DNA of 64,000 nucleotides from Saccharopolyspora gloriosae (GTDB taxonomy: Bacteria > Actinomycetota > Actinomycetes > Mycobacteriales > Pseudonocardiaceae): positions 4,465,501-4,529,500 of the forward strand of contig NZ_JACHIV010000001.1 in NCBI RefSeq assembly GCF_014203325.1, given 5' to 3'. The translations under genes were made by a program, and so were the position numbers. This document shows, piece by piece, positions 20,405-50,432 of this stretch. Each line of letters begins with the position of its first letter. The stretch's first letter is position 1. Under the pieces are notes generated by a model. It was not told where the DNA came from. It saw only the letters and a list, made by a program, of their open reading frames with translations, and did not search any database.

Positions 20405-23084
<2,680 letters not shown>

Positions 23085-23117
23085 TTTTCGGGCTCTTTCT
23101 GCTTTGGTGTCCGGGTA

Positions 23118-23345
23118 ACGGAACCTCAGTCGGTCTCTCGCTGCGGGATCTTTTTCCCAAGTGGCTCCGCCACGAGGGAAAAAGCTGTCCTCGCGAGAGA
23201 CCGACTGAGAACCCGCCGGTGGTCGGCTTTTCGACGTGGGCTATGTGCTTCGCACATACAGGCACGGCCTCCGGCCGCAAGGCAGACGGGGCTTCGCCCG
23301 CCCCAAGGCACGGCTTCGCCGCAAGGCACGGCCTTCGGGCGGGCG
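23118..23345 (+). repeat. Palindromic repeat element, copy A (with hairpin array)
   Basis: After katG lies a long palindrome. Outer arms CTCAGTCGGTCTCTCGC (23125-23141) and GCGAGAGACCGACTGAG (23193-23209) are perfectly complementary over 17 bp. Inside are CTTTTTCCC/GGGAAAAAG and GTGGC-TCC-GCCAC. The interior is nearly identical in all four copies, while the arms differ. Downstream are a hairpin TATGTGC-TTC-GCACATA (23242-23258) and about four tandem small hairpins that each begin GGCA and end AA (about 23261-23345). The 35 bases 23234-23268 are identical to the reverse complement of 42842-42876 in copy C. Not protein coding. Confidence 0.9.
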
Positions 23346-28410: not shown

Positions 28411-28512
28411 CCACGACTCCTGTGGTCGAACGTTCGGGACTCCGACCACGCTAACAGATAAGTCAGACGACTGTCTTACTGATGTCTTTGCTTGGCTTGA
28501 GTAGTGGGGCGG

Positions 28513-28677
28513 GTGGCGGAACCTCAGCGTTCTTCTCGCTGCGGGATCTTTTTCCCAAGTGGCTCCGCCACGAGGGAAAAAGCTGTCCTCGCGAGAAGAA
28601 CGCTGAGAACCCGCGGGTGGTCGTTCTGCTTTGGTGGTCGCTGCTCAGCGGCTTCGCCGCTGACAAGAGAACGACCA
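28513..28677 (+). repeat. Palindromic repeat element, copy B
   Basis: Outer arms CTCAGCGTTCTTCTCGC (28523-28539) and GCGAGAAGAACGCTGAG (28591-28607) are fully complementary over 17 bp but differ from copy A. The inner CTTTTTCCC/GGGAAAAAG and GTGGC-TCC-GCCAC stems are the same as in copy A. A second structure follows: TGGTCGTTCT (28618) pairs with AGAACGACCA (28668), enclosing CAGCGGC-TTC-GCCGCTG (28646-28662). That hairpin is shared with copy D but absent from A and C. The rest of the 28411-28786 gap shows only the P450 ribosome site and upstream sequence. Not coding. Confidence 0.9.
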
Positions 28678-42814: not shown

Positions 42815-42997
42815 GCCGAAGTCCGTGCCTTGGGCGGCGAAGCCGTGCCTGTATGTGCGAAGCACATAGCCCACGTCACAAAGCCCTCACCCGCGGGTTC
42901 TCAGGTGTCTTCTCGCGAGGACGGCTTTTTCCCTCGTGGCGGAGCCACTCGGGAAAAAGATCCCGCAGCGAGAAGACACCTGAGGTTCCGCCACCCG
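42815..42997 (-). repeat. Palindromic repeat element, copy C (reverse orientation)
   Basis: On the minus strand this copy has arms CTCAGGTGTCTTCTCGC and GCGAGAAGACACCTGAG (plus-strand 42968-42984 and 42900-42916), perfectly complementary over 17 bp and different from the arms of A, B and D. Inner stems match the other copies apart from single changes. On its downstream side (42842-42876) is the 35-base hairpin segment identical to copy A, then two small GGCACGG hairpins. It fills most of the 324-bp gap between the PF10118 and reductase genes and lies 3' of the PF10118 gene in the same orientation relative to it as copy A to katG. Not coding. Confidence 0.9.
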
Positions 42998-49937: not shown

Positions 49938-50240
49938 GTGCTCGTCCTCGTCGCATCCCTCCAGGTCAAGCCCGGTCGCCGAGACGACTTCCTGACCGCG
50001 ATCAAAGCCGACGCGCAGGCCTCCGTCGCCGGCGAACCGGGCTGCGTGAGCTTCGACGTCGTCGTCGACACCGAGGACGACCACCACTTCGTCCTCTACG
50101 AGGTCTACCTCGACCAGGCCGCGCTCGAAGCGCACCGCGCCTCGCCGCACTTCGCGGCCTGGACCGAAGCCGCCGCCGAGGTCCTCGTGCCGGACGGCCG
50201 GAAGGTCACCATCACCGAACGACTCCTGCACGAGTCCTGA
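49938..50240 (+). CDS. Antibiotic biosynthesis monooxygenase (ABM)/YgiN-like protein
   Basis: A 100-residue dimeric alpha/beta-barrel-type protein: LVLVASLQVKPGRRDDFLTAIKADAQAS, EPGCVSFDVVVD, HHFVLYEVYLDQAALEAH and SPHFAAWTEAA are the canonical blocks, with the conserved His of HFVLYE and HRASPHF. Members include cofactor-free quinol/anthrone oxygenases and haem-degrading proteins, plus many of unknown role. GTG 49938 has GGAG upstream. It is divergent from the lyase gene, about 190 bp away, and ends shortly before palindromic repeat copy D. Without context its substrate cannot be guessed. Confidence 0.87.
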   Translation: MLVLVASLQVKPGRRDDFLTAIKADAQASVAGEPGCVSFDVVVDTEDDHHFVLYEVYLDQAALEAHRASPHFAAWTEAAAEVLVPDGRKVTITERLLHES

Positions 50241-50275
50241 ATCCTCTCAGCGTGGCCTTCGTAGTTGGTCGCTCA

Positions 50276-50432
50276 GCGGAACCTCAGGTGCTTCCTCGCT
50301 GCGGGATCTTTTTCCCAAGTGGCTCCGCCACGAGGGAAAAAGCTGTCCTCGCGAGGAAGCAGCTGAGAACCCGCCGGTGGTCGTTTTGCTCGGGCTGGTC
50401 ACTGCTCAGCGGCTTCGCCGCTGACAAGACGA
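50276..50432 (+). repeat. Palindromic repeat element, copy D
   Basis: Arms CTCAGGTGCTTCCTCGC (50283-50299) and GCGAGGAAGCAGCTGAG (50351-50367) pair over 17 bp with a single mismatch. The interior is the same as in copies A and B. The following hairpin CAGCGGC-TTC-GCCGCTG (about 50405-50421) is shared with copy B. It fills the gap between the convergent ABM and P450 genes and may also stop transcription from both sides. Not coding. Confidence 0.9.

Follow-up and report, generated by a model that had tools for sequence, protein, structure and literature searches.

Four palindromes lie between genes in the 64,000-nt stretch of DNA analysed here (the window; bases 4465501-4529500 of the single-contig, 6.83-Mb source genome, G000). 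The middle of their outer stems differs from copy to copy while the two arms go on matching each other, which raises the question of what these repeats are and what keeps their arms complementary. We addressed it by comparing G000 with five further genomes of the genus (G001-G005; Saccharopolyspora-like) and by wider searches.

A conserved unit larger than its arms

All four palindromes are found where the original prediction had placed them, at ~23.1, 28.5, 42.9 and 50.3 kb (Table 1). In the window CTTTTTCCC has 8 occurrences, where shuffles predict 0.08. Every copy has 17-bp arms of the pattern CTCAG-N7-CTCGC. As had been described from the window, the 7-bp middles differ, and the arms pair perfectly in three copies while the fourth, at 50.3 kb, has a single mismatch (G.G). 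The conserved core that had been described with them holds for the window and for the main group of copies in G000, but it understates what is conserved and overstates how firmly: the conserved unit exceeds the arms, extending leftward of CTCAG by ~45 bp and rightward by as much as 100 bp or more, with additional small hairpins on the right side, and the inner stems vary in the relatives.

Table 1 Features of the four copies (positions in the window).
Feature	Positions	Strand	Core position	7-bp middle	Remarks
Copy 1 hairpin unit	23116..23218	+ (structured strand = minus)	23150-23184	TCGGTCT	Arms 23125-23141 / 23193-23209; site also occupied in G005 (CCGGTCT) and G003 (TGAGCCT)
Copy 1 conserved left flank	23085..23115	+			Begins directly after upstream TGA 23082-23084
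Copy 1 right flank, type II	23210..23345	+			Extra small palindromes: GCTATGTGC-TTC-GCACATAC at ~23240-23259, then GGCACGGC...GCCGC units
Copy 2 hairpin unit	28514..28616	+	28548	CGTTCTT	Type I right flank, GCTCAGCGGCTTCGCCGCTGAC next
Copy 3 hairpin unit	42891..42993	-	42925 (minus orientation)	GTGTCTT	Core NN = GA; type II right flank
Copy 4 hairpin unit	50274..50376	+	50308	GTGCTTC / CTGCTTC	3' of the stop of an ORF ending at 50240

Downstream, the type II right flanks carry small palindromes of the TTCG type in arrays, GCTATGTGC-TTC-GCACATAC and GGCACGGC-TTC-GCCGC (23240-23345 in the window), and at one site these show a paired change between species, TATGTGC/GCACATA vs TATGCGC/GCGCATA. Beside copy 2, at 28457-28478, lies a near-palindrome, GATAAGTCAGACGACTGTCTTA, which is retained with small changes in four genomes and resembles a repressor operator.

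Copies in the genome, the genus and the family

The exact core CTTTTTCCCNNGTGGCTCCGCCACNNGGGAAAAAG is present 193 times in G000 (106 + 87), 116 times in G003, 38 in G005 and 20 in G004, and is absent from G001 and G002. A loosened core gave the set of own copies used below, which comprises 159 G000 copies and not all of the 193. Their 17-bp arms are perfect in 122/159, carry one mismatch in 26/159 and more in 11/159, some of these through indels, and 27 distinct 7-mers are found among own copies with agreeing arms. Some copies join two alleles, such as CCGGTCT/TTGCTTC (L010) and CTGTCTT/CGGCTTC (L019 of G005). In others the unit is inverted relative to its outer flanks (L003, L029 of G005 and L060), and in G003 two cores (925186 and 3714286) are inverted within intact arms.

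A structural subfamily is ~15 nt longer (L058:16390, L073:2535, L124:821, L136:1033); its left internal loop is longer and different, with for example TGCGCCCCTGGCCGGGTGTCACAG or TGCCCGCTTTCCTGGTGTGGCCG in place of TGCGGGAT. Orientation in G000 seems clustered, mostly plus at 2.15-2.95 Mb, and the listed AA and GA copies are all minus at 4.9-5.2 Mb, a pattern that the direction of the genes could explain.

A covariance model matches six of six genus genomes, with at least 150 matches each in G000, G003 and G005, 149 in G004, 48 in G001 and 43 in G002, numbers that are not copy counts because a palindrome can score on both strands. A strict, strand-specific pattern returned 132 units in G003, 81 in G004, 50 in G005, 11 in G002 and 10 in G001. 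In a sample of the Pseudonocardiaceae, a family of soil bacteria, matches occur in 28/120 genomes and 12/46 genera. The class-wide search matched 2/394 genomes, namely G000 and G038, which belongs to the same family; with scoring limited to 10 candidates per genome, it indicates only weakly that the element is absent from the rest of the class.

Among named genomes, 36 matching stretches were found, all from Saccharopolyspora sp. NFXS83, and plasmids, phages and viral contigs gave no match to copy 1 or to one exact pattern. At gathering score, Rfam has no match to the element and only a tRNA in the window; below threshold, the best hits at copy 1 are miRNA hairpin models (E 0.019). We found no description of this repeat family in the titles and abstract openings returned by searches of the open-access PMC literature.

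The stems change in pairs

For the genus, the 104 distinct combinations of arms and core whose spacers measure 49-53 nt were aligned without reference to structure; five off-register rows (indels) were dropped, which slightly favours pairing, and one window copy was added, giving 100 distinct rows. Paired cells make up 96.8% of this alignment against 90.2% when shuffled, both sides change at 14 pairs, and double-change cells number 272 against 83.6 in shuffles. None of 500 shuffles reached any of the five measures used, and the covariation score is higher than in 500/500 shuffles and in every slid control. The strong paired change that had been proposed from four copies is thus borne out. Stem letters that keep changing in hundreds of copies, with both sides still matching, suggest a hitherto unrecognised group of small mobile elements whose persistence depends on folding as a single strand.

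A wider alignment of the bottom strand combined 20 genus rows with 26 further loci (L174-L199), 24 of them from other genera. In these 46 rows pairing in the basal helix of 23 pairs reaches 98.3%, with double changes in 14 of them, and the covariation score is 0.383 vs 0.130 when shuffled; the measure of further pair types is unexceptional, being reached by 106/500 shuffles. The inner helix fits at 69.0%, having been drawn from one core and being poorer for other cores. Perfect 7-bp middles are present in 176/250 of the relatives' units, as found with a pattern that fixes the surrounding blocks (250 of the 252 listed arm pairs were used, including 100 of the 132 from G003; two G004 rows were dropped).

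The inner stems, too, change in a paired manner in relatives and also in some of the minor copies of G000, where the alternative cores CGATTTC/GAAATCG, CGTTTTCACC/GGAGAAAACG, CATTTTTCC/GGAAAAATG and GTAG/CTAC are found. The core is not intrinsically invariant, and the claim of a loop side better conserved than the stem applies to the main copy group of G000 but fails across the relatives. Certain imperfections are themselves conserved and stay uncorrected in nearly all 100 rows: AAC opposite AAC, a TGC bulge and GGGAT/GTCCT.

The bottom strand is the folded form

The mismatches that remain in the arms are unevenly distributed. Read on the top strand, G000 copies with up to 3 mismatches have 18 A.C, 6 G.T and 16 other mismatches (p = 0.02), and the relatives' units with up to 2 mismatches have 60 A.C, 11 G.T and 11 other (p = 3e-9). 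When distinct arm combinations are counted once, A.C exceeds G.T by 37 to 11 in the relatives (p = 2e-4) and by 16 to 3 in G000. Because the copies are related, all these p-values overstate independence. L174-L199 show the same excess, with 21 A.C, 0 G.T and 6 other at up to 4 mismatches with two indel rows set aside, or 20 A.C, 2 G.T and 10 other when counted on the alignment with the indel rows included. A top-strand A.C is a bottom-strand G.T, which still pairs, and the bottom strand is therefore the folded form.

On the bottom strand, the conserved AAC opposite AAC of the top likewise becomes G.U, U.U and U.G. That strand also folds more stably in 25/26 of the L174-L199 loci, by a mean of 8.2 kcal/mol with RNA and 3.4 with DNA parameters, and in 67/100 genus rows, where the mean is only 1.5 kcal/mol. 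The folding that matters is that of the bottom strand.

Copies often lie behind stop codons

Position relative to genes was examined for 154 own copies, with gene calls that are approximate (the caller was trained on GC3-selected ORFs). None extends more than 30 nt into a called gene. The flanking gene pairs are +- at 74 copies, ++ at 49, -- at 24 and -+ at 3, with four undetermined. The left neighbour is co-directional in 125/154, with a median of 44 nt from its stop to CTCAG; at 99/154 the stop is 20-60 nt before CTCAG, and the other 55 lie outside this distance from a called co-directional stop. Such placement is found in 43/49 ++ pairs vs 2/24 -- pairs. It extends to L174-L199, where the stop of a co-directional gene starts 25-54 nt before CTCAG in 22/26, behind varied upstream genes; L192, L194 and L195, three of the 22, are a single orthologous site. 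In other genera one copy separates the genes for ATP-synthase B and delta, and another lies between ftsQ and a Mur ligase gene.

A TGA/TGAT insertion motif was considered and rejected. The stop is TGA in 87/99 copies vs 590/668 background genes; stop-codon types thus match the background, which argues against a stop motif as the target, and no motif stands out, although G and T are more frequent after the stop than in the background. In the window, the gene upstream of locus 3 ends sooner than its G003 counterpart, and its old end lies beyond the element, so insertion is not always exactly behind a native stop.

Gain, decay and replacement at individual sites

Comparison of the window loci with the relatives shows that occupancy differs between genomes. 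The element at locus 1 is common to G000, G005 and G003. Locus 2 is a clean empty site in G005, and in G003 and G004 the element is missing next to the shared left flank, with the right side rearranged. At locus 3 it is missing in G003, the sole relative that aligns there. At locus 4 it is missing in G005 and G003 and, next to the shared left flank, in G004; the convergent stops here are 12 nt apart in G005 vs 208 in G000. Elsewhere, the L055 insert sits, by eye, between a native stop and a native terminator-like hairpin, and the site of L106 is occupied in G005 (L022) by a copy that has decayed and carries an internal deletion. Copies of the element are mobile, and some sites are recently gained.

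The element's ends are not sharp, and no clear target duplication was seen by eye in 9 sites, one of them a decayed copy; a tenth site did not align. An autonomous parent split into halves was also sought and rejected: among the 43 half-matches listed, none has a gene between the halves, and by eye they are copies in decay, copies truncated by deletions, complete copies that the half pattern had overlooked, and chance matches in genes.

Orthologous sites occupied in both genomes mostly have different arms, most of them self-matching; such sites were drawn from DNA fetched for holding copies and do not give a fair count of shared sites. In 15 G000-G005 pairs the flanks are 84-99% identical, mostly ~95%, while the 7-mers differ at a mean of 3.73 positions vs 3.71 when shuffled (P = 0.54), with one identical pair. 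Over ~170 bp, 19 ortholog pairs have an identity of 0.889 vs 0.849 for paralogs; orthologs are thus slightly more alike than average paralogs, so overwriting is partial. The best paralog exceeds the ortholog in 18/19, in what is a best-of-many comparison. Common alleles are species-specific: TTGGTCT in G003 (27/100) and CGGCTTC in G005 (17/50), with CGTTCTT (20/159) and TCGGTCT (19/159) common in G000.

Linkage within the element, measured as normalised mutual information excess in the 145/159 own copies with regular ends, is 0.84 between the left and right arms and 0.25 between the left and right outer flanks. The arms are linked to right-flank type at 0.33 / 0.24, and the left arm to the left flank at 0.13. 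With sites inside the hairpin, the left arm has linkages of 0.105 (core dinucleotide) and -0.03 (C/T site). Either the arms travel as a pair without the intervening sites, or those single sites mutate often.

One copy, behind gatB, has been kept in three species of one genus, with surroundings that are 85-86% similar and paired changes in its stem; the neighbour in L194 has a Pfam GatB match. The covariance model, with stricter filters, found no other copy in these genomes, so copying between paralogs is not needed there. At this site selection or templated correction is at work in place.

Search for a mobilizing enzyme

Profile searches with PF01797 (Y1 transposase, RAYT-type) returned 0 matches in G000 and G004, both rich in copies, with a positive E. 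coli control. The absence of a RAYT gene from the window thus extends to the whole of G000. PF00078 (reverse transcriptase) had 0 matches in G000, G001, G002 and G004, a result on which a retroelement of the group II or retron type was rejected. Neither profile matches in G000, in keeping with the earlier view that this is no ordinary IS. Among 120 family genomes, Y1 genes are present in 11/28 with the element vs 11/92 without (p = 0.004), and reverse transcriptases in 7/28 vs 45/92 (p = 0.03). A Y1 enzyme as a past partner of the element is possible, as is a shared ecology.

Explanations for the paired stems

With moderate confidence, we read the repeats as a small, non-coding, non-autonomous mobile element of the Pseudonocardiaceae, REPIN/MITE-like, whose bottom-strand hairpin is the substrate for copying. 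It would measure ~190-250 bp, including a hairpin of ~100 nt, and would spread via the single-stranded bottom-strand hairpin, for which ssDNA is likelier than RNA because at many copies no called gene transcribes from that side. A candidate recombinase, belonging to the host or to a mobile element, would recognise the conserved blocks (CTCAG, CTCGC and the TGCGGGAT/CTGTCCTC internal loop), and the 7-bp stretch between them could take any sequence provided that pairing is kept. Resident copies would be repeatedly overwritten by copies from the same genome, which would give each species its own stem alleles at shared sites, and poorly paired copies would be bad donors, lost over time. We regard as unlikely a dispersed single-strand recombination system, with bottom-strand hairpin sites behind stops at which a recombinase would insert copies and rewrite both arms together while sparing the hairpin middle, each species renewing its whole set of sites.

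The arms could instead be kept matching by hairpin-templated DNA synthesis, in which a polymerase switches between arms and copies a mutation across, so that palindromy would come from the mechanics of mutation and not from selection. Such switching reportedly makes the two arms alike and inverts the spacer between them (PMC8604942). It would account for arms that co-change (0.84) around a nearly unlinked dinucleotide and C/T site (0.105 and -0.03) and for the frequency of one-mismatch copies (26/159), several of which join two known alleles, and the inverted units (L003, L029, L060) and the two inverted G003 cores fit it equally well. However, the conserved imperfections remain uncorrected in nearly all 100 rows, a strand-specific excess of one wobble type is not expected from it, and allele sets shared across sites would require copying between loci as well. 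We consider this explanation a real possibility, if an improbable one; templated correction may contribute to arm matching. Less can be said for a structured host RNA, in which the transcribed bottom strand would fold as a 3' UTR, antisense or small RNA with a cellular function and mobility would be secondary. The tolerance of G.U-type pairs on one strand, a structure conserved over 12 genera and the gatB site kept vertically in three species are all as such an RNA would have them, but matches per genome vary from 1 to at least 150 between relatives, sites have been gained recently, and at 49/154 copies (the ++ pairs) the flanking genes run opposite and no called neighbour transcribes the bottom strand, which together make this quite unlikely.

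That the element is a REPIN and owes its mobility to a RAYT (REP-associated Y1 transposase) would agree with the enrichment of Y1 genes in element-bearing genomes and with its REPIN-like blocks and compensating spacer (PMC3116915). Against it, neither G000 nor G004 has a PF01797 match despite their many copies; this reading is already contradicted for G000, barring a diverged or recently lost RAYT, and we hold it to be highly improbable. Intrinsic terminators of the upstream genes would also place a palindrome shortly 3' of stop codons, but the two copies from other genera that interrupt the ATP-synthase and mur-fts gene strings lie between co-directional genes, L055 retains its native terminator-like hairpin (by eye) downstream of the insertion, and the non-pairing mismatches sit on the top (mRNA) strand. 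The original prediction had dismissed a plain terminator, and we too find this barely credible.

Relation to known elements and significance

REPINs combine conserved blocks with a hairpin spacer that varies and compensates (PMC3116915). Like REPIN/REP sequences as described there, the element is extragenic, high in copy number and non-autonomous, with compensatory stem changes; unlike them, it has no RAYT-type (PF01797) match in G000, a longer unit, frequent placement behind stops, a strand-specific wobble and stems that are replaced at orthologous sites. GTAG, of the GTAG/CGTC REP foot tag, is present by eye in some left flanks. ERIC, RUP and NEMIS/Correia are palindromic or stem-loop intergenic repeats of ~100-170 bp that are thought to be mobile (PMC2229807). 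The element resembles these bacterial MITEs in being small, palindromic and intergenic, with element-free sites in relatives (window loci 2-4), and differs in that no terminal repeats or target duplication are defined, in its restriction to one bacterial family in the samples searched and in the freedom of its stem letters.

In integrons, the attC site lies behind the cassette ORF, and its core motifs (R-box) are GTTRRRY / RYYYAAC. The element shows a structure asymmetry in favour of the bottom strand and often lies behind an ORF, but occurs as single dispersed chromosomal copies, not in cassette arrays, and no integrase is tied to it; the attC motifs are absent by eye, the element's ends being GCGGAAC and AACCCGC (alignment A1). 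attC sites are variable in sequence, are recognised by their folded structure and recombine through the bottom strand (PMC2727003). Quasipalindrome correction by template switching (PMC8604942) offers a further likeness in matching arms and possible spacer inversion; by itself it leaves the conserved imperfections, the strand bias and the alleles shared between loci unexplained. We file the element as a variant of small palindromic mobile repeats, REPIN-like without its transposase and with an attC-like bottom-strand fold behind an ORF.

Taken together, the copies document hundreds of natural paired mutations within a single DNA hairpin, and close relatives have copies at shared sites. They make several questions testable: which of the two strands is the active one in a small palindromic repeat, whether perfect palindromes are kept by selection or by templated copying, and how such repeats move without a RAYT or a reverse transcriptase. 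For comparisons between strains, the arms of such repeats serve poorly as markers of particular sites.
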